Shown one piece after another: positions 8,095 through 17,689 of a stretch of DNA of 64,000 bases. The DNA comes from Deltaproteobacteria bacterium (GTDB taxonomy: Bacteria; Desulfobacterota; GWC2-55-46): NCBI GenBank assembly GCA_016234935.1, contig JACRNL010000010.1, positions 1 through 64,000 on the forward strand, given 5' to 3'. The translations under genes and the position numbers were made by a program. The notes beneath the pieces were generated by a model. It was given only the letters and a program-made list of their open reading frames with translations. It made no database searches and was not told the DNA's origin. Every line of letters begins with the position of its first letter. Position 1 is the first letter of the stretch.

Positions 8095-8544
8095 CTAAAG
8101 AATGTGACTGTACTCCAATCTGTCGGCAAGAAGCCCGAGGAACTTATTCACTACGTTTTGGCGGGAGAGGAAGGAAAATACCGGCCTCCTGCGCGCGCCG
8201 AGTTCTATAAGGGCGCTTATGTTGCCCCTGTGGTTGCTGTCGAACTTCAGGCCTTTTCTGAAGGACTTTATCGCGGCGCTCTTCTGTTTGTTCATGAGGA
8301 ATATGGAGCCCAGATTGTAGTAGATGTCCGGATTGTAAAACTCCCTCTCTGAGGCGATAAGGCAAAGGGCCACCGCCCTCTCAAAAAGACCGCCTGTGCC
8401 GGCCAAAGACCTCGCGTAGTAAGACAGGGCTAGGGGAACGCGCGTAAATGTCGAGTCACGCTCAAACAGCGTCATTGCCTCGGCGTAGCGCTCGGACTTT
8501 GCCAGTTCAACCGCCCTTGCGACCAATTCGCTCATCTCTATCAT
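8095..8544 (-). CDS. small TPR protein, paralogue of the 30.7 kb gene
   Basis: 149-aa soluble helical protein with about two to three TPR-like units: NPDIYYNLGSIFLMNKQKSA and the following helix pair are the clearest (about 73-105). The C-terminal tail (IELGARRRPVFSFLSRQNVVNKFLG) closely matches the tail of the protein at 30674-31144 (IELGFRSKSIIPALKRSNPINKFLG), so the two are paralogues with a conserved non-TPR end. The start is supported by GGAGG 5 nt upstream. It has its own terminator and is separated from the upstream Hsp70-like gene by another, so it is probably a separate transcript. Function unknown. Confidence 0.8.
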   Translation of the reverse strand: MIEMSELVARAVELAKSERYAEAMTLFERDSTFTRVPLALSYYARSLAGTGGLFERAVALCLIASEREFYNPDIYYNLGSIFLMNKQKSAAIKSFRKGLKFDSNHRGNISALIELGARRRPVFSFLSRQNVVNKFLGLLADRLEYSHIL

Positions 8545-8790: not shown

Positions 8791-11463
8791 TTACTGCAAC
8801 CTCAAGCCGGTCTCCAATTTTTCGCCACCGGGCAATATGACCGTCAGAAAACCCTTTTCATCTATCTTGAAGGTCAGGTTCACGCTGTCACTGAGAGGCT
8901 CTTTGAACTTGACTATGATGCTCTTCATGGCCTTCAACGCGTCTTCCTTGGCCTCTATCAGCTCCTGCTTCAGGAACTCCATTCCCTCTTCCCTCACCCA
9001 TCTCCTTGAGAGGAGGCCGTCCGGGGCCTCAAAGAACTCTATGCGCATCTCGCTCTGCGGGCCGAGCTTTCTTGCGGGGTTGAGCCTGAAGGTCTTCTCA
9101 AGCGGCAGGGCGTCGCCCTTTTCAAGAAGGATGCTGTATGAAAAAAGCTTTTCCTTGTCCGTGGTGGCGTAGCGCACGGCGTAGGCCATGCCAAGATGCC
9201 TGTCCACCACCTCCTTTGAGCCGTAAAGCGCCGCGCCGGAGGCCACGGCCGAGAGCGGGCTGTGATCGTAGATAAGATTCTGCACGCGCAGGTTATGGAA
9301 TATGTGGCCTATCTTGTCCTTGAACGAGGGTATCTGCGACGAACCGCCGGTAAGGAGCACGGCCTCGATCCTGTCCTTCCGGAGGCCGACCTTTTCAGCC
9401 TGCTTCAGGACGTAGGCGATATTGCGGTCTATGTTCTTGTAGAAATCATGTTTATCGAGTATCTCTTCAAGCGTCTGCCGCGACACCTTGCAGACCTCGG
9501 CCCCGTTCCATTCGAACGTGCATTCGCTCTGGCTTGAAAGCGCTATCTTTACGGCCTCGGCCTTGACGATGAGCCTGTAAGGCGGAACTTCACCGGCAGG
9601 CAGCCCTATCTGCGCGGCAAGATACTCGGCAAGCCACAGATCTATATCCGAACCGCCAAGAAAGAGCGCCCTTTCCGGCTTTGCCACCACGTGAATCTCG
9701 CCAAGGTTCAGGCGCACTACCATCATATTAAGGGTCGAACCGCCGAAGTCAACGACCATGAATACCTTGTCCTGGGCCTCGGCCACCTCGTAGCCGATGG
9801 CGGCGGCAAGCGGCTCTTCTATGAACTCGGTCTTAACGCCCTTGAAGGCGCGTGAAGTTATCTCCCTGAGCGTGTTTTTATAATCGGCAAAACCCACCGG
9901 CACGGTCAGGTAGAGGACGTCGGCGAGGCTTTTTGAAAATACCGTATTGAACCAACCGGCATGCGCGACGGACTTCTTCAGATGGGCAAAGAGTATCTGC
10001 AAATACATCTCCATGTATTCGCGGCCCTTGCCGCTGCCGTCAAGGAGCATCTGTTTAATGTTAACGACGGGCTTATCCTCCGTCACCTCCGCGCCGATGG
10101 TGCTTGTTTCAAGGCCTAAGACCGTCGGAACGCAGTAGATACTCTCGTACCTCCTCGTGAGGCCGCCGAGCATGAGGAACTCCGGCCTCAGGCCGGTTTT
10201 TCTCCTCATGACGACCGTGTTGGTGGCTCCGAGGTCTATGACAAGACATTCCTCAGGGGCCTTCGCGCCCTTTGCCGCGTCAACGCGCGCCAGATGCTCG
10301 CTTTTGACAGGCGACAGATGCTTTAAAAACACCGGCCTTTCTATCTCGCCGCCGTGGTATGAGCTTTTAAGCGATTCAAGGCGGTCAACGACCTTCCTTA
10401 CGGACTCACGCAGGCGCTTAGGCTGAACCCAGACGTGGGCGAAGGGCTTTAATGTTTCGATAAAACGCGTGTCGCTTATATTCCTTCCCAGCTTTTCAAG
10501 CTCCAACGAAAAGAGGTCCGCGTACTTCTCCCGCAAAAACCGCCGCTGTTTGGCCTCGCTGAGGACGGTTTCCTCGGCGGACAGGACCATGTCCACAACG
10601 TCCAGGAACTCCACGTCCTCCATCCAGCTCTTCATGCTGAAAAAGCCCAGAGACTCCTCAAGCACATCCTGTATGAGCGGGAAAAATGCCTCTATTTTAG
10701 GGGCCTCCTGCAATATATCCAGAAGCGCGTGCTGCCTTGCGAACGAATCCTTCATTGCCTGGGCCGCCCTGTGGGCGCCTTCAACGGCCTGTTTGTAAAC
10801 AGGGAACAGCTCCGGCGCGCTCTTTACCTCGCCCGCCACGAACATTAGGGCGTATTTTCTGTAATACGGCTCGTCAATCGTTGCCGCCGCCTTGATGGCA
10901 AGCTCAAGGGCCTCGCGGTAGGCGTCAAAAAAAAGGCCTTCCTTTGGTATCTGCGCGGCCACGCCCATAAGCGTGTAGCCCCTGTAAAAAAGATAGTCGT
11001 TTGCCTTGGGGAGCTGGCTTCCTATCTTTTTCAGGTCGGGCTGGATGAAACGGGGTTTATCGGGAAGGCCCATCGCAAGCCGCCACGCCATTACGCGCAG
11101 TAGCAGGGTCTCCTTTGTCTTGGGGATATCGCTGCCCAGCTTTATAAGGTTTGTAATCCGTTTGGTGTTCTCGGTAACGGCGTCCGCAGAGGCTATTGCC
11201 TCCTCCACGGCCTTTTTGTAAAGCGGCAGGAACACGCCTGTATCAGGCACGCCCTTAATGAAGTCGACAAGCGCGGAGGTCTTGTCTTCGGGGTCGTCTA
11301 TCCGCCCGATAAGGTCAAGGGCGATCTCGTGATGCCGAAGGTATTCGGCCGTCTTGGGGAGCTGCCTTAAAACAACTCCCACGGCCTCCCGTATCTTCGA
11401 ATGGTCCGCATGCTCCCTTAATTCCTCAAGCGCATCTTTTAAATGATCAATGGATATCGTCAT
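8791..11463 (-). CDS. non-canonical Hsp70 with N-terminal helical domain
   Basis: 890-aa protein. Residues about 1-370 are almost wholly helical and repeat-like (several LP..YKxAVExAI-type helix pairs), resembling a HEAT/ARM-like scaffold; this half has no family I can name. Residues about 405-755 form an Hsp70/actin-type ATPase: phosphate-1 VIDLGATNT (408-416), EEPLAAAIGYE (549-559), phosphate-2 VVDFGGSTLN (570-579), GGSDID (603-608) and adenosine motif AVLLTGGSSQIP (701-712). A short beta-type substrate-binding-like region closes the protein; the usual helical lid and EEVD tail are absent. The start overlaps the radical SAM stop by 4 bp (ATGA), so the two are translationally coupled. Its partners suggest a dedicated chaperone rather than DnaK. 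Confidence 0.85.
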   Translation of the reverse strand: MTISIDHLKDALEELREHADHSKIREAVGVVLRQLPKTAEYLRHHEIALDLIGRIDDPEDKTSALVDFIKGVPDTGVFLPLYKKAVEEAIASADAVTENTKRITNLIKLGSDIPKTKETLLLRVMAWRLAMGLPDKPRFIQPDLKKIGSQLPKANDYLFYRGYTLMGVAAQIPKEGLFFDAYREALELAIKAAATIDEPYYRKYALMFVAGEVKSAPELFPVYKQAVEGAHRAAQAMKDSFARQHALLDILQEAPKIEAFFPLIQDVLEESLGFFSMKSWMEDVEFLDVVDMVLSAEETVLSEAKQRRFLREKYADLFSLELEKLGRNISDTRFIETLKPFAHVWVQPKRLRESVRKVVDRLESLKSSYHGGEIERPVFLKHLSPVKSEHLARVDAAKGAKAPEECLVIDLGATNTVVMRRKTGLRPEFLMLGGLTRRYESIYCVPTVLGLETSTIGAEVTEDKPVVNIKQMLLDGSGKGREYMEMYLQILFAHLKKSVAHAGWFNTVFSKSLADVLYLTVPVGFADYKNTLREITSRAFKGVKTEFIEEPLAAAIGYEVAEAQDKVFMVVDFGGSTLNMMVVRLNLGEIHVVAKPERALFLGGSDIDLWLAEYLAAQIGLPAGEVPPYRLIVKAEAVKIALSSQSECTFEWNGAEVCKVSRQTLEEILDKHDFYKNIDRNIAYVLKQAEKVGLRKDRIEAVLLTGGSSQIPSFKDKIGHIFHNLRVQNLIYDHSPLSAVASGAALYGSKEVVDRHLGMAYAVRYATTDKEKLFSYSILLEKGDALPLEKTFRLNPARKLGPQSEMRIEFFEAPDGLLSRRWVREEGMEFLKQELIEAKEDALKAMKSIIVKFKEPLSDSVNLTFKIDEKGFLTVILPGGEKLETGLRLQ

Positions 11464-12107
11464 CTGCTCTCTGCTGGCCGTGGTAATTGCAATGTCCTGC
11501 CAAAACCCGTGCCCGTCACTGTCCCGTCCGGGCTTATTGTTATCTCCGCCTTTGCGGGCATGTAAAGGTTGTCAAGGCAATAGCGATCAGTTAAAAAACA
11601 GAAGCTCTGATTCGTTGAGCCGCGCGCAAGGAGCGTGGGCTCCGGCATTTGCCCATTGTACGCGCCGTCAACGAGAAGGTCTATAAACGGCAGGGCGGCG
11701 CTCATATATTTACTCAGCCTGATATCTTCAAGCCTGAAGCCGGTATAGACAACGGTCGAAAGGCCATGCTCTGTTTGCGCGCATTCAAGAAGCTCCTGAA
11801 GGCCCTTTGCCTGCATGAAAGGCTCTCCGCCGCTGACGGTCATGCCTTCTATCCTGCCGGAAAGATGCCTTTCAAAAAGTTCGTTAACGCCATACGCAAG
11901 CCTCTTTTCAAAAGGGTGCGTGTCCGGGTTGAAGCATCCGTAACAGCGCCTTTCGCATCCCTGAAAAAAGACCACGAGCCTTGTCCCCGGGCCGTTCACC
12001 CTGGAGGCCGGTATAACCGCGTGAAGGTTTAGTTTGCCCTCGCGTGCCCCCCGCTTAAAACGTGCGGGGGCAGGCTGAAGCGGGGGTTTGTTGGTTTTGT
12101 CCTGCAT
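11460..12107 (-). CDS. NrdG-like radical SAM protein
   Basis: Small radical SAM enzyme resembling anaerobic ribonucleotide reductase-activating or 4Fe-4S single-cluster proteins. GPGTRLVVFFQGCERRCYGCFNP contains the CxxxCxxC cluster motif, and SGGEPF follows about 35 residues later as the SAM-binding motif. At about 215 aa it has only the minimal radical SAM fold with no auxiliary cluster. Start choice is uncertain: upstream codons come from inserted palindromic repeats (PFKGQAF, PARFKRG), and the ATG at 12107 is the first non-repeat Met. It sits between the DUF2997 gene and the coupled Hsp70-like gene, so its substrate may be one of the cluster proteins. That is inference. Confidence 0.8.
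   Translation of the reverse strand: MQDKTNKPPLQPAPARFKRGAREGKLNLHAVIPASRVNGPGTRLVVFFQGCERRCYGCFNPDTHPFEKRLAYGVNELFERHLSGRIEGMTVSGGEPFMQAKGLQELLECAQTEHGLSTVVYTGFRLEDIRLSKYMSAALPFIDLLVDGAYNGQMPEPTLLARGSTNQSFCFLTDRYCLDNLYMPAKAEITISPDGTVTGTGFGRTLQLPRPAESR
12046..12071. repeat. palindromic repeat family B, inside a CDS
   Basis: CCCCCCGCTTAAAACGTGCGGGGG. It is read on the minus strand inside the radical SAM gene as PARFKRG. Confidence 0.75.
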
Positions 12108-12113
12108 AAAAGC

Positions 12114-12136
12114 CTGCCCTTTGAAAGGGTTCAACC
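12114..12136. repeat. palindromic repeat family A variant
   Basis: GCCCTTTGAAAGGGTTCAACC at the 5' side of the radical SAM gene. The same variant occurs at 45553-45576. Confidence 0.7.
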
Positions 12137-12149
12137 CTCGCGTGTCCAA

Positions 12150-12465
12150 ACATGTCCTCGAATGTCTCTATCCGTCCTCGAATGCTCGTATCGGAGATAT
12201 AAACATTAGGGGAAAAGGAAGTAAGAATTTTTGAATCTTTTTTTTTCTCCTCTCCCCTCGCGGGAGAGGGTAGGGTGAGGGGGACATTTTTCACCCCCCG
12301 CCCTGTCCTTCCCCGTCAAAGGGGAAGGAAATAAGGAAGTGTCCATCGACCCACCCTACCCTCCCCCTCAAGGGGGAGGAATAAAAGAACAGCGGGGATG
12401 ACAGCCGGGCAGCATCCCCCGATAAAGACATTCGAGGGCGGATGACAGAAAGCGGGTCAGCGGCC
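12150..12465. repeat. repeat-filled gap inside the Hsp70/AAA cluster
   Basis: No gene seen. It contains several CTCGAATG...TATCGG units (12157-12200; inverse copy 12415-12438), CTCTCCCCTCGCGGGAGAG (about 12250-12270) and CCTTCCCC/GGGGAAGG and CCTCCCCCTCAAGGGGGAGG arms (12305-12382). These are dispersed genomic repeats. They do not form an obvious minus-strand terminator, so transcription may continue across. Confidence 0.65.
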
Positions 12466-12651
12466 TCATTTGCTCTCGACGTCTATCTTCACCTTAACGG
12501 ACGTGTCGCCCTCTTCCTTTTCGGAAAAACTTTCTATAGCGCCAAGGTTTTTCGTAAGGTGCTCCGCGACCTCCTTGCAGTCCGTGTAGACCGAAGAGTC
12601 TATCTCCACCTTGCCGTCTTTGCTTATGCGAATGCGTATCTGTCTGTCCAT
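12466..12651 (-). CDS. DUF2997 small protein
   Basis: 61-aa acidic protein. It starts with alternating beta-type residues (RQIRIRISKDGKVEID), then YTDCKEVAEHL with a single Cys, then a lysine/glutamate-rich end with KVKIDV. This matches what I know of DUF2997: a short I-x-I-x-x-G-x-V strand pair followed by G-x-x-C and a helix. It lies 6 nt after the DUF1257 gene with AAGGGAT as a plausible ribosome-binding site. Function unknown. Its fixed partnership with DUF1257 and Ycf46-type ATPase genes, as I recall from other genomes, suggests a small partner or substrate. Confidence 0.72.
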   Translation of the reverse strand: MDRQIRIRISKDGKVEIDSSVYTDCKEVAEHLTKNLGAIESFSEKEEGDTSVKVKIDVESK

Positions 12652-12657
12652 GAAATT

Positions 12658-12993
12658 TTATCCCTTGAGAAGTATTAATATCTCGCCGGCGGCGGTCTCG
12701 GTTTCCCTTGCCACCTCGAAGTCCAGCGGAAGGTTGTCCTTTATGGACTCAAGGGCGTAAACCTGTTTGAGCCTGTCGGAAAACACCCTGACCACGCGGT
12801 TGTCCCCGGCCACCTCGTGCATGCCCTCTTTAGTGACGCCGATGTTTATGATGTCGCCCTGCCTGTCGACTTGTATCTTGCCCTTAGACAGAATAAAATT
12901 CGTTATCTCGCCCCGTTTTTTCAGCTCCTCAAGGGCGGCCATCAGATATCTTTTGCTCCTGAGCTCTGTCTTTATCTTTGTGTAGAAGGACAT
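12658..12993 (-). CDS. DUF1257 (Ycf35-like) protein
   Basis: 111-aa protein starting MSFYTKIKTELRSKRYLMAALEEL, the pattern of the DUF1257 family that includes plastid/cyanobacterial Ycf35 (SHFSxIKTxIxDxxxLxxAL). An INIGVTKEG strand and a YALESIKDN helix follow. No catalytic motif is visible. It lies 118 nt after the ATPase-protease gene with a strong hairpin in between, and directly before the DUF2997 gene, so the two small proteins are very probably co-translated. No biochemical role is established that I know of. Confidence 0.75.
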   Translation of the reverse strand: MSFYTKIKTELRSKRYLMAALEELKKRGEITNFILSKGKIQVDRQGDIINIGVTKEGMHEVAGDNRVVRVFSDRLKQVYALESIKDNLPLDFEVARETETAAGEILILLKG

Positions 12994-13030
12994 GTTACCC
13001 CCCCTATTACATGATTTTTTAAGCTTTTTT

Positions 13031-13059
13031 GTCTCCTCTCCCCATCGGGGAGAGGAGAC
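13031..13059. repeat. 13-bp perfect hairpin between AAA-protease and DUF1257 genes
   Basis: GTCTCCTCTCCCC-ATC-GGGGAGAGGAGAC. On the transcribed (minus) strand it is followed by A-rich, not T-rich, sequence, so it is not a standard terminator. It could stabilise or process the mRNA. Related arms occur at about 12250 and 15907. Confidence 0.7.
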
Positions 13060-13111
13060 AAAAAGAACTTAACCGTCTATCCTTAAGTCTGAAGCCAAGC
13101 AAGCAAAGCGC

Positions 13112-15250
13112 TTAAACCGGCGGGTTATCCTTAAAAAACTTCTCAAGCGTGTCCCCGTTCATGAGAACGTCCTTCAGGAGCCTTTCCACAAGCTTCATGA
13201 GGATGCTCTTGTTTTTGTTGATTACCGAAGACGCCTTTTCCTTGGCTCTGTCTAATATTTTCTGGATGTCGTCAAGAACTTCACTGCCGGAGGTAATGGC
13301 ATAATCCTGGAGTCCGATGAGGCTTTTATTCTTCATTATCTCGCCAAAGCCGTACTCAACGACCATCTTTCTGGCTATCTCGGTGGCGTAGGCAAGGTCC
13401 TGCGACGCGCCGACGGTCTTTGAGTCGCTCCCCCCAAGCTCATCCTCCGTGACCATGCCGCCGAGGATGACGCCTATCTCCTTTTCCAGGTCTTTCTTGG
13501 TGAAGGTCGTTCTTTTCCCCTCGTCCATGGGAATGAAGGTGGCGTAGTTCCGGTAGTTGTCCACGCTCACGAATACCGGCGTAAGGTTGAAGTAGTGCTT
13601 CATGAGGATGGTATGGCCGGCCTCGTGCATGGCTATGTTCCCGCGCTCGGACTCCGAGAGAGACTCGGCCCTCTGCAAAAACAGGGCGCGGGATGCCGGA
13701 CGCGCCCGCTGGTGGCTCCAGTTCCTCAGCTCCTCGACCTCTTCCTTCTTGAGGACCGAGAGCGGAGTGATGTTGCGTATCGCCTTTAAAATTTGCTCCT
13801 GCGTCACGTCGAGGCCCGTGAGGGCGTCTATCACGTCGTCAACTTCCTTGCTCATCTCTCCGTGATGGACGAGGTTGAACGTCGACACCACCGCGTCCTT
13901 GGCGGCCTGCTCTATCTCCGCTCCGGTGTAGCCCTGAGAGTTCTGCGCAAGCTCGCGCAGGTTGAGCCTTGAGAGGTTCTTTACCCTCTTTTCAAGGTGT
14001 ATCCTGAATATCTCTTCCCGTTCATCAAGGCTTGGAAGGTCGACGAAAAATACCTCGTCGTATCTGCCCTTTCTCCACAGCTCCGGAGGAAGGTTTTTCG
14101 GCTCGTTTGCGGTTGAGATGACGAAGACCGGCTTTTCCTTTTCCTGAAGCCACGTGATGAACGTCCCGAAGACGCGCAGCTGCGTGCCGGAATCGCCCTG
14201 ATAGCCGCCGACGCCGCCGAACGCCTTGTCTATCTCGTCTATCCACAGCACGCACGGGCTTACGGCCTCGGCAAGCTGGATGCACTTTCTGATATTTTTT
14301 TCGGATTCGCCGACGGTTGAGCCAAAGAGCCTTCCCACGTCAAGGCGCAGGAGCGGCAGATTCCATATCCCCGCAAGGGCCTTGCAGCAAAGGCTTTTGC
14401 CCGAACCGGGCACGCCTATGAGCAGAAGCCCCTTGGGAACGTCAAGTCCCAAAGTCTCCATCCTGTCCCTGCTCAGACGGAAGACGTGCTCCCGCTCGAT
14501 GAACCACTTCTTTATCTCGCTGAGTCCGCCGATATTCTCGATAGTTTCTTTATACGGATAATAATCAAGTATCTTCTGCTTTCTTATTATCTGCTGTTTT
14601 TCATCCTGTATGTAGGAGATGCAGTCTTCATTCAGGGCGCCGTTGTTCATGCTGATGGCCTTCCTGATGACGCGCTTGACGTTGTCCATTGACAGGCCCT
14701 GAAGCGACTTGTAGAGGATGGACTTCGTGGAACTGTGCCACGTGGAGGGCATCAGGTGGCCGTAAGTGGCCGACACAAGCTCGGCTATCTCGTCGTAATC
14801 AGGCAGGGAGAGCTCCAGAACGACGATGTCCTCCTCAAGCTCCGCCGGTATCTCCGAAAGGGTCGGCGAAAGGATGCAGACGGTGTTCAAAGACCTCTGC
14901 TCCTCCATTATCGCCGGCAGGTCGCGGAACTTCCTTAAAAATTCATGCGAGTTGAAATAGCTGGCAATGTCTTTAAGCATGAAGAGGTTGTTTACGTCCT
15001 CGTCCTTGGTTATCTTTTCCTCGATAGTCGAAAGTATTTTTTCCCTTCCGAGCGCCTCTCTCTTTTTCTTCTCCGCGCCGCCGTAAAGCCCCCTTGACAC
15101 GGACCAGGTCCAAAAACTGACCTTCATGCCGTCGCAGAGCTTTTCAACTATGCGCTCCACCCTTCTTTCCTCGAAAGACACCAGCCATATGACCGGATAC
15201 CTCGCCTCGATGTGAATCTTTATCTCTTTCTCAAAGTCTCTGGTATTCAT
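13112..15250 (-). CDS. Ycf46-like AAA+ ATPase fused to M41 (FtsH-type) zinc protease
   Basis: 712 aa from the ATG at 15250, which has GAAAGG 8 nt upstream; a longer frame to 15316 has no such site. Residues 1-230 resemble the Ycf46 N-terminal region (EARYPVIWLVSFEERRVERIV). The AAA+ core has Walker A GVPGSGKS (279-286), Walker B VLWIDEID (334-341), sensor-1 Asn382 and the KGRYDE arginine-finger region (394-399). Residues about 535-690 are an M41 peptidase: HEAGH zinc motif (542-546), ILGGMVTEDEL (595-605), the third ligand in GASQDLAYAT (Asp618) and ARKMVVEYG. Unlike FtsH there is no transmembrane segment, so this should be a cytosolic unfoldase-protease. It heads the operon with DUF1257, DUF2997, radical SAM and Hsp70 genes. 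Confidence 0.88.
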   Translation of the reverse strand: MNTRDFEKEIKIHIEARYPVIWLVSFEERRVERIVEKLCDGMKVSFWTWSVSRGLYGGAEKKKREALGREKILSTIEEKITKDEDVNNLFMLKDIASYFNSHEFLRKFRDLPAIMEEQRSLNTVCILSPTLSEIPAELEEDIVVLELSLPDYDEIAELVSATYGHLMPSTWHSSTKSILYKSLQGLSMDNVKRVIRKAISMNNGALNEDCISYIQDEKQQIIRKQKILDYYPYKETIENIGGLSEIKKWFIEREHVFRLSRDRMETLGLDVPKGLLLIGVPGSGKSLCCKALAGIWNLPLLRLDVGRLFGSTVGESEKNIRKCIQLAEAVSPCVLWIDEIDKAFGGVGGYQGDSGTQLRVFGTFITWLQEKEKPVFVISTANEPKNLPPELWRKGRYDEVFFVDLPSLDEREEIFRIHLEKRVKNLSRLNLRELAQNSQGYTGAEIEQAAKDAVVSTFNLVHHGEMSKEVDDVIDALTGLDVTQEQILKAIRNITPLSVLKKEEVEELRNWSHQRARPASRALFLQRAESLSESERGNIAMHEAGHTILMKHYFNLTPVFVSVDNYRNYATFIPMDEGKRTTFTKKDLEKEIGVILGGMVTEDELGGSDSKTVGASQDLAYATEIARKMVVEYGFGEIMKNKSLIGLQDYAITSGSEVLDDIQKILDRAKEKASSVINKNKSILMKLVERLLKDVLMNGDTLEKFFKDNPPV

Positions 15251-15431
15251 TATATAAACCTTTCTCAGGCTGTGGCGAAAAGGAGGTAAGCCGCAATCCC
15301 GCCGCGCCGCAAGCACATATATAAATCTATTTTTGGGATTAGATTACTGTAACAATCATACCATATTAAAAGGGCGGTGTAAAAGGTCTTTTGCCTATTC
15401 GGCAAAACCCGTAGCGCGAGGCTTCTACCGA

Positions 15432-15503: not shown

Positions 15504-15848
15504 TTAAGCGGCCTTCCTGTATGCCTGACCCTCAAGGCTGAAGCCCGATTGCTTCCACTCCTCAATGCCGCCTTTGAACCGTCTCACGTCCTTAAACCCC
15601 ATCTTCTGGAGCTTCTCGCCCGCAGTCTCGCTTGCCGAACACGCATCGTTTGTGCAGTGCACCACTATGGTTTCATCCCTGTCAAGAAGTTTCAGAGCCT
15701 CAGTCTCGATTTCGTCAACCGGGATGTTGATCGACCCATGAATATGCCCCTGCTCAAAGGCCGCCCTGCCCAGCACGTTCACCACGGTTACGTCCGTTAT
15801 GCTGTCCATCAACTTTTTAAGCTGTTTGCTGGTAATAGTTTTTAGCAT
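15504..15848 (-). CDS. single-domain rhodanese (sulfurtransferase)
   Basis: 114 aa, one rhodanese domain. RAAFEQGHIHGSINIP (about 28-43) is the substrate-side CH2A-like motif, and VVHCTNDACSAS places the catalytic Cys65 in the active-site loop, with a second Cys70. FKGGIEEWKQSGF is the typical C-terminal end. It transfers sulfane sulfur to a thiol or carrier; no partner gene is adjacent that fixes the acceptor. The ribosome-binding site is AGGGAGG. It is preceded by a strong promoter overlapped by a Fur-like box. The protein ends YRKAA, like the neighbouring inactive paralogue (LRKAA). Confidence 0.88.
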   Translation of the reverse strand: MLKTITSKQLKKLMDSITDVTVVNVLGRAAFEQGHIHGSINIPVDEIETEALKLLDRDETIVVHCTNDACSASETAGEKLQKMGFKDVRRFKGGIEEWKQSGFSLEGQAYRKAA

Positions 15849-15983: not shown

Positions 15984-16460
15984 CTAAGCCGCCTTCCTGA
16001 GCGCAATGCCCCTGCCCTCGATCAACTCACCCGCCTCTTGCCACTCACCGGCTGTGCCATCGAACCTGAGGAGTTTTTCGTAACCGATAGTAAAGAGCTT
16101 ATCGGCGGCTACGGCGCTCAGCGGCGACCCGATGCCGCCCTCGGCGTAGATTACCACGACGTCGTCTTCACTTATAAGGCTGTGCGCGTCGCGCTCTATC
16201 AGCCCGACAGGGATATTCACCGCCTTGAAGGGGATCCCCCGCCCGCGGACAGATGCCAGGGGTGCAACCCTCTTTTTCTTAAACGCATCTTCTATGTTCA
16301 CATCGAGGAGCGTGACTCTTTTCACGTTGCCAATCAACGGTTTCAGTCCATTAAGTGAGACAGTCCCATACATATCCATCAAAGGCCCCATGAAGATAGC
16401 CACGCTGTTCATCTTATTAAAGTCCTCCGGCCTTACCGGTCTGTCAAGATCCGTGTCCAT
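15984..16460 (-). CDS. rhodanese-fold protein lacking the catalytic cysteine
   Basis: 158-aa protein with rhodanese features: LLDVNIEDAF (about 51-60), FKAVNIPVGLI (about 78-88), a loop where the active-site Cys would lie but reads YAEGGIGSPLS, and LLRFDGTAGEWQEAGE near the end. There is no Cys in that loop, so it should not be a thiosulfate sulfurtransferase; it may bind or regulate. An extra N-terminal stretch (1-45) is not recognised. The ribosome-binding site is AAAGGAGG. It sits upstream of the active rhodanese on the same strand, 135 bp away, but the downstream gene has its own promoter. Confidence 0.7.
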   Translation of the reverse strand: MDTDLDRPVRPEDFNKMNSVAIFMGPLMDMYGTVSLNGLKPLIGNVKRVTLLDVNIEDAFKKKRVAPLASVRGRGIPFKAVNIPVGLIERDAHSLISEDDVVVIYAEGGIGSPLSAVAADKLFTIGYEKLLRFDGTAGEWQEAGELIEGRGIALRKAA

Positions 16461-16545: not shown

Positions 16546-17094
16546 TTAAGGGCGTCCGGCGGTAAGTTTTCTCAGTGCATTGCGGTAGGTTTCGAGGTCA
16601 TTATCGGAAAAAAGGCAAAAGCGTATGAGCTTAAAGAACCCTTTGTGCGCCCCGGCATATTCGATTACGGTCTTCAGGGCTGTCGTAGCCGCATCTTCAA
16701 CAGGGTAGCCATATGCGCCCGTGCTGATAGACGGGAACGCGACGGTCTCGATGCCGCGCTCGGCGGCAAGTTTAAGGCTCGATTCATACGCTTTGGCAAG
16801 CAGTGCGGCCTCGCCGCGCCTGCCGCCCGCGTAGACCGGACCTACCGTGTGTATGACGTAGCGGGCCTTCAGCATCCCGCCTGTCGTGATAACGGCGCTC
16901 CCGGTGGGGCAGCCGCCCTTTATCTTTCTGCACTCCGCCATTATCTCCGGCCCGCCGGCCTTGTGTATGGCGCCGTCAACGCCGCCGCCGCCGGCGAGCT
17001 TTGAATTGGCGGCGTTCACTATGGCGTCGGTCTCTTCTTTTGTTATATCTCCCTTCTTAAGAGAGATAACCGTTCCATCAACGTTGATTTCCAT
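16546..17094 (-). CDS. macrodomain protein (ADP-ribose binding/deacetylation)
   Basis: Stand-alone macrodomain of about 182 aa. GDITKEETDAIVNAANSKLAGGGGVDGAIHKAGG covers the catalytic NAAN and glycine-rich loop, and SISTGAYGYP is the second ligand loop. Members such as YmdB bind ADP-ribose or hydrolyse O-acetyl-ADP-ribose. The ATG at 17094 (MEINV) is preferred; the frame extends to 17148, but that extension (PLEGAEPLEGVQ) is translated from a family A palindrome that also forms the end of the upstream methyltransferase gene. Confidence 0.88.
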   Translation of the reverse strand: MEINVDGTVISLKKGDITKEETDAIVNAANSKLAGGGGVDGAIHKAGGPEIMAECRKIKGGCPTGSAVITTGGMLKARYVIHTVGPVYAGGRRGEAALLAKAYESSLKLAAERGIETVAFPSISTGAYGYPVEDAATTALKTVIEYAGAHKGFFKLIRFCLFSDNDLETYRNALRKLTAGRP

Positions 17095-17104
17095 AATGCC
17101 TGCC

Positions 17105-17136
17105 TGAACCCCTTCAAGGGGTTCAGCCCCTTCGAG
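17105..17136. repeat. palindromic repeat family A at a gene junction
   Basis: GAACCCCTTCAAGGGGTTCAGCCCC. On the minus strand it carries the TGA stop of the methyltransferase gene and lies just before the macrodomain start. Confidence 0.85.
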
Positions 17137-17689
17137 CGGATATCTCATAATGCGACTCGTTCAAGGACAAAGCCTTCACCTTTTCAAAACCCGCGCCTTT
17201 AAGCAGCCCTATAACTTCATCTTCAGTCAGCCTTTCTTCAAGCGGCGGCCCCTCTTCTTCCTTTTTTTTCTTCCAGTCAATGATAATGACCGCGCCTCCG
17301 TCCCTTATAATCCTTTTGACCTCTTTCAGGAAAAGGGGCTTATCCTCAGCTTCATGAAGCATATATCCAAGAAATGCAATGTCAACCGCCGAGTCTTTGA
17401 CAGGGACGGATGACTCCATGGACTTCAGGGGCACGACGTTTGCAGGGGGCCTTCGCTCCCTCAGGCGGCCAAGCATCTTTTCCTCGGTATCCACGGCATA
17501 GACGACGCCCTTTTCACCGACGATATGCGCGGCGGGTATCGCGAAAAATCCGGGGCCGCAGCCGATGTCGGCAAAGGCGTCGCCCGGTTTAAGGCCCGCT
17601 TCCCTTAAAAGCCTTTCCGGCGCGATATCCCTGTGCCTTTCTTCGCTTAAAAGGCGTTCAACGTCTGCGGGGTCGAATTTATGCGGCAT
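17123..17689 (-). CDS. class I SAM-dependent methyltransferase
   Basis: 188 aa. FADIGCGPGFFAIPAA (about 39-54) is SAM motif I, VVYAVDTEEKML (about 62-73) is the acidic ribose-binding loop, and DIAFLGYMLHEAEDKPLFLKEV is motif IV and after. These are typical of the UbiE/arsM-like type XI family. Substrate unknown. GGAGG lies before the ATG. The C-terminus ends in a family A repeat (ISARRG-stop), so the last residues are probably repeat-derived. Same strand as the macrodomain gene and 18 nt after the CopD-like gene, so likely one operon. Confidence 0.8.
   Translation of the reverse strand: MPHKFDPADVERLLSEERHRDIAPERLLREAGLKPGDAFADIGCGPGFFAIPAAHIVGEKGVVYAVDTEEKMLGRLRERRPPANVVPLKSMESSVPVKDSAVDIAFLGYMLHEAEDKPLFLKEVKRIIRDGGAVIIIDWKKKKEEEGPPLEERLTEDEVIGLLKGAGFEKVKALSLNESHYEISARRG

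Follow-up and report, generated by a model that had tools for sequence, protein, structure and literature searches.

Ycf46 and Ycf35 are conserved plastid and cyanobacterial proteins for which, to our knowledge, no settled function is known. The FtsH family of M41 proteases has been described as membrane-anchored (PMC9020784). Previous studies in Synechocystis have shown that the genes for a DUF2997 protein, ycf35 and the ferredoxin fed7 are neighbours, and that Fed7 binds a DnaJ-like protein and is required for the cells to tolerate oxidative, metal and iron stress (PMC4284462). Here we describe a gene, in a 64,000-nucleotide stretch of DNA (the window), whose product, as far as its sequence indicates, is a complete Ycf46 ATPase joined at its C-terminus to an FtsH-type M41 zinc protease domain. 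Ycf46, the M41 domain and the operon partners are each known already; what is new is a different AAA+ lineage driving an FtsH-type protease ring. We found no published Ycf46-protease fusion, as judged by titles, the openings of abstracts and term searches, with most subscription journals outside this scope.

The fusion gene occupies positions 13112-15250 on the minus strand and encodes a product of 712 aa, as read from the list of open reading frames and the alignment of homologues. The mechanical open reading frame is longer (13112-15316, with a GTG at 15316); the ATG at 15250 was chosen as the start because it is at this Met that the aligned homologues start. Upstream of the gene there is a promoter-like site at 15355-15383 on the minus strand (TTTACA, 17 nt, TATGAT, with a TG before the -10), a candidate recognized by its match to the consensus only. 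Four parts follow one another along the protein, all coordinates being on the minus strand. Residues 1-225 (14576-15250) are the N-terminal region of Ycf46, predicted from its model on Rix7 and from hhalign to be a degenerate AAA+ domain (pseudo-D1), and residues 226-470 (13841-14575) are an active-looking AAA+ domain with its lid, assigned by Pfam, a tree and residue conservation. Residues 471-521 (13688-13840) are the C-terminal helices of Ycf46, whose last residues, RARPAS, mark the fusion joint at the end point of unfused Ycf46, and residues 531-703 (13142-13660) are the Peptidase_M41 domain, assigned by Pfam, phmmer and fold. The motifs of the AAA+ domain are Walker A at residues 279-286, Walker B at 335-341, the sensor-1 N382, the arginine fingers R393 and R396, and the pore residues F309-G310. 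The original prediction proposed an HMM comparison, in which both Pfam families score well over their cut-offs: AAA at residues 275-404 (E 1.4e-30) and Peptidase_M41 at residues 531-703 (E 5.1e-21, 75.8 bits against a gathering cut-off of 29.9).

The motor of this protein belongs to the Ycf46 lineage rather than to FtsH. Residues 1-521 align end to end with unfused Ycf46 (~500 aa) at ~40% identity to cyanobacterial proteins, named ones included, and the protein then runs ~190 residues, the Peptidase_M41 domain, beyond the point where unfused Ycf46 ends. In a search across the phylum, full-length fusions were found at 71-80% identity, below which came mostly proteins of ~500 aa at 34-49% that end near residue 521. 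Likewise, a scan of named genomes gave 26 fusion loci (L056-L081) at 71-86% identity, most of them full length and three cut by contig ends, all but one labelled as Deltaproteobacteria, Nitrospirae, Nitrospiria or Desulfuromonadales; the next matches were unfused Ycf46 of Nostoc, Fischerella, Oscillatoria and other bacteria at ~40%. In a quick tree of the AAA core, which contains long branches, the fusions and Ycf46 share one branch (SH-aLRT 100) with FtsH and CDC48 on the other side, and within it the fusions form one group (SH-aLRT 95) while 14 FtsH form a separate one (SH-aLRT 100). The step from fusions at 71-86% to unfused Ycf46, together with this tree, indicates that a whole Ycf46 was kept and that an M41 domain was added at its C-terminus. 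The claims that the protein has a Ycf46-like N-terminus and AAA+ core, and that Ycf46 itself ends after its AAA+ part, thus stand: the alignment covers Ycf46 in full, and the cyanobacterial proteins of ~500 aa stop near residue 521. The original prediction did not mention that Ycf46 is present in full to residue 521, nor the likely degenerate second AAA+ domain, the conserved operon and the spread within one class that are described below.

It would be tempting to view the protein instead as a classical FtsH that has drifted after losing its membrane anchor, as it shares with FtsH, i-AAA and m-AAA proteases the order of AAA and M41, the C-terminal M41 fold and the HEAGH and Asp zinc ligands, and as it obtains a partial score from the NCBIfam FtsH model and a global fold match to FtsH. 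However, its AAA core, which the original prediction named as a point where clustering inside classical FtsH would count against it, falls within Ycf46 with an SH-aLRT of 100, and residues 1-230 and 470-521 are specific to Ycf46. The NCBIfam FtsH model TIGR01241 scores it at 176.8 bits against a cut-off of 600. Moreover, the same genome encodes a normal 626-aa FtsH with membrane segments, and also a CDC48-like protein; no second Ycf46 was found in that genome. A drifted FtsH is therefore very improbable. Unlike the FtsH, i-AAA and m-AAA proteases, the fusion combines another AAA lineage with an extra N-terminal domain and has no transmembrane segment.

Several lines of evidence place the C-terminal part among the M41 proteases. 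A phmmer search with the last 193 residues returned FtsH-type proteins only, the best being Thermotoga maritima FtsH (3kds, E 3e-14), and the structure predicted for residues 472-712 can be superposed on that of T. maritima FtsH (2ce7_C; Z 21.2, rmsd 2.2 A over 178 residues), compared with Z 7.9 for the best structural match outside FtsH-type proteins. The HExxH motif, for which a position outside a metalloprotease fold had been named as a possible refutation, hence sits in an FtsH-type M41 fold. Both motifs of the original prediction were located as claimed, HEAGH at residues 542-546 (13613-13627, minus strand) and GASQDLAYAT, which holds the third zinc ligand D618, at residues 614-623 (13382-13411, minus strand); both assignments rest on sequence and conservation. 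H542, E543, H546 and D618 are invariant in 26 out of 26 distinct fusion sequences from several families, and the same holds for the residues of Walker A and Walker B, the sensor-1 Asn, the two arginines at finger positions and the pore-loop F-G. The predicted architecture of a Ycf46-FtsH hybrid is in agreement with all of this, combining an AAA+ part of Ycf46 lineage with an M41 fold whose zinc ligands do not vary. With this invariance, and with the recurrence of the architecture within the class (see below), the match lies well outside what chance would give. In pairwise comparisons with the window gene, dN of the M41 part was ~0.14-0.36 while dS was at least 1.0, and since dN is well below dS, the M41 domain is under purifying selection.

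The M41 domain is nevertheless divergent. It is ~23-29% identical to FtsH and contains neither the canonical IPRGxxLGxT segment nor the FLG loop, so that, judging from the sequence, its specificity or activity may differ. The main rival to the protease reading builds on this point: the M41 domain could be proteolytically silent and serve as an oligomerisation or substrate-holding ring, so that the protein would be an unfoldase like other Ycf46. The FtsHi proteins of plants, which are pseudo-proteases, offer a case for comparison, and not only the missing IPRGxxLGxT segment but also the faster evolution of the M41 part than of the AAA part would fit such a domain. However, pseudo-proteases usually lose their zinc ligands, whereas here all four catalytic-site residues listed above have been retained across several families. 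We consider a silent domain unlikely, and prefer the reading in which the M41 domain is an active protease.

How such a protein could assemble is a separate question. No transmembrane segment was found in the fusion protein of the window, in which the maximum hydropathy over 19 residues is 1.27; the same maximum is at most 1.33 in the 26 fusions and 2.13-2.89 in 14 FtsH of related genomes, so that the claimed lack of a membrane anchor is upheld. It has been shown that human YME1L stripped of its membrane anchor no longer forms hexamers and is inactive, except when a soluble hexamer is provided (PMC5095350), and that the soluble domains of some bacterial FtsH form hexamers alone (PMC9020784). 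As YME1L without its anchor fails to assemble, assembly of the fusion would rest on the putative pseudo-D1. The full-length AlphaFold model is only moderately confident (pLDDT 73.8 overall, pTM 0.43), with a pLDDT of 74-90 for the greater part of residues 1-200. In this model, residues 2-399 superpose on D1 and D2 of Rix7 (Z 19.3, rmsd 4.0, 377 aligned), and likewise on p97/Cdc48, and residues 227-711 superpose on FtsH. Furthermore, an hhalign comparison of the profile of residues 1-232 with the protein's own AAA core gave a co-linear match at 86.7% (E 4e-6), with CDC48-type AAA profiles weak at 1.5-2.5% and unrelated controls at 0.2% or less. No Walker A motif was found in residues 1-225. The models thus point to the N-terminus as a likely degenerate D1 that would be common to all Ycf46 proteins and could keep the ring assembled without a membrane. 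Such a two-tier layout would resemble that of the AAA+ unfoldases p97/Cdc48 and Rix7, from which the fusion differs in having a first domain without Walker A, a covalently attached protease and no N domain.

The fusion is widespread within one class of uncultured bacteria. With a profile of the joint and the protease, it was detected in 45 out of 63 genomes of the window's class, representing 27 out of 38 genera, and in 17 out of 394 genomes of the phylum at >=90% completeness, 15 of which belong to that class. Among the 18 genomes of the class without it, one carries a piece (76% identity) that covers residues 1-321, and another carries a distant unfused Ycf46. No fusion was found in 98 cyanobacterial genomes, a zero that is an empty answer without a positive control and by itself weak; the same profile does find the M41 domain of FtsH in two cyanobacterial genomes, with lower scores. 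Cyanobacterial and plastid Ycf46 thus has in common with the fusion residues 1-521, the AAA clade and relatives of DUF1257 and DUF2997 nearby, and differs from it in being ~500 aa long and stopping where M41 begins in the fusion. The unusual architecture might raise the suspicion of an assembly or annotation chimera of two genes, for which nothing else speaks. As the fusion recurs in many independent assemblies across the class and purifying selection acts on both sides of the joint, an artefact of this kind has a negligible probability. A stand-alone M41 domain beside unfused Ycf46, which seemed to occur at two other loci (L156, L157), was rejected, as both proved to be FtsH interrupted at a contig end or by a frame break.

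The gene order is conserved in the named loci that extend far enough, wherever the contigs allow it to be read. The Ycf46-M41 fusion gene is followed by two small genes (products of ~110 aa and ~60 aa), a radical SAM gene (~190 aa) and an Hsp70-like gene (~890 aa), frequently with a TPR gene after them. In the window, all on the minus strand, the first of these encodes a divergent DUF1257 (Ycf35)-like protein of 111 aa (12658-12993). It is assigned by profile-profile comparison with the DUF1257 neighbours of unfused Ycf46, two of them Pfam-confirmed (hhalign 94.4%, E 9e-8), by PHROG 20456, which it shares with a Pfam-confirmed DUF1257, and by its conserved adjacency; a direct Pfam search with it gave no hit. 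The second is a DUF2997-like protein of 61 aa (12466-12651), which is weak in Pfam, below the cut-off, and is assigned by profile comparison. Next is a conserved NrdG/PflA-like radical SAM protein (Fer4_12; 11460-12149), placed by family match, whose true start is probably the ATG at 12107 because the conserved part begins near residue 39, and whose CxxxCxxC motif is kept in 12 out of 12 examined. The Hsp70-like ATPase (8791-11463), also conserved and placed by family match, has a helical N-terminal extension of ~400 aa and retains most of its ATPase motifs, and the TPR protein (8095-8544) is present in several of the operons. In the gap that separates the fusion gene from its DUF1257-like neighbour, two 18-nt arms form a perfect inverted repeat around a 3-nt loop (TTTTTGTCTCCTCTCCCC / GGGGAGAGGAGACAAAAA; 13026-13064), to which palindromes near 12239-12269 and 12352-12392 are related; it resembles a dispersed repeat or a terminator that works in both directions.

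Modules with the same partners, built around an unfused Ycf46, occur in other phyla. The plasmid pPPM1a of Paenibacillus polymyxa carries Ycf46, DUF1257, DUF2997 and a radical SAM protein (Fer4_12), arranged as in the fusion operon, without an M41 domain and with no Hsp70-like gene annotated. That this order is kept with an unfused Ycf46 implies that the novelty of the fusion operon is the graft of the protease. A Paenarthrobacter plasmid has Ycf46, a 141-aa protein, DUF2997, one more gene and then a Fer4_12 radical SAM protein, and in a Treponema plasmid such a radical SAM protein adjoins Ycf46. A Pseudanabaena plasmid (L159, 1134-8746) bears a different version of the Ycf46 module, a single run of genes with Hsp70, DUF1257, an AAA_21-type ATPase (AbiEii toxin-like), DUF2997, Ycf46 and a WD40-repeat protein; it includes GrpE besides the separate Hsp70, DUF1257, DUF2997 and Ycf46. 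In the window's own phylum, unfused Ycf46 operons (L046-L050) contain DUF1257 and an Hsp70-like protein (the one tested had no Pfam match), and several of them add a HEAT-repeat protein, a small protein of 63-70 aa and DUF2997. The sharing of partners across phyla, taken together with the data on Fed7, suggests that a link between the Ycf46 module, an Fe-S protein and an Hsp70 system is a recurrent one.

The presence of unfused Ycf46 modules on plasmids and in phages could hint that the operon serves in conflict, against phages or otherwise, with the protease as effector, and PADLOC models of IetA match the AAA core. However, the IetA matches are limited to the shared AAA core, and the PADLOC matches to IetA and pVip were discarded as defence evidence because only the shared AAA and radical-SAM cores match. 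In addition, the fusion is present across most of a class, within a single syntenic operon. On plasmids and in phages it was not found: no matching record there reaches 80% coverage of the query at a single place, and the matches are unfused Ycf46 and other AAA proteins only. Nor did our scans find close relatives in viral contigs. Such a class-wide, syntenic spread makes the fusion look like a housekeeping gene and not a patchy defence island, and we regard a role in conflict as quite improbable. Phages do carry unfused relatives, as indicated by the match of phrog_8638 to residues 3-524 (E 2e-127). Full-length unfused Ycf46-like ATPases are also found in Mycobacterium phage Suarez and Rhizobium phage L338C, where they are annotated merely as AAA ATPase.

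We consider it likely, from what the sequence implies for solubility and proteolysis, that the gene encodes a soluble ATP-dependent AAA+ zinc protease. Six subunits would form a ring, kept assembled by the degenerate AAA+ domain at the N-terminus, a role that falls to the membrane anchor in FtsH. The second AAA+ domain would hydrolyse ATP and thread the substrate past the F309-G310 pore loop into the M41 ring below, which would cut it, with zinc bound by H542, H546 and D618 and water activated by E543. The products of the operon (DUF1257-like, DUF2997-like, radical SAM, Hsp70-like and TPR) would probably act as adaptors that hand over substrates. At the level of the operon, we tentatively propose a dedicated module for cytoplasmic proteolysis or quality control tied to Fe-S or radical-SAM chemistry. 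The more specific idea of a soluble two-tier AAA+ metalloprotease, built from the Ycf46 pseudo-D1, an active D2 and M41 and dedicated to a pathway linked to radical SAM and Hsp70, is plausible but somewhat short of an even chance. If it were true, the widespread module of Ycf46, DUF1257, DUF2997 and a [4Fe-4S] protein would be an unfoldase or proteostasis system, and in this lineage its clients would undergo direct degradation.

The protease claim is testable with one purified protein. A naturally anchor-free member of the M41 family would reveal another route of assembly, and would be a convenient model enzyme. The finding also offers a way into the roles of Ycf46 and Ycf35: that a protease is naturally fused to Ycf46 is an argument for a threading or unfolding activity of Ycf46, whose likely partners are named by the operon that they share.

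Some further features of the window were noted. Two rhodanese-like proteins are encoded upstream of the fusion gene at 15504-15848 and 15984-16460 on the minus strand; they are 31% identical over 129 columns, and no matches to either were found at the other fusion loci searched. Beyond them, at 16546-17689 on the minus strand, two overlapping open reading frames look, by their sequence, like a macrodomain protein and a SAM methyltransferase, and homologues of both occur upstream of the fusion gene in two other loci (L056, L069). Finally, the 5' part of a 16S rRNA gene (Rfam RF00177) lies at the edge of the window, at 1-470 on the minus strand.
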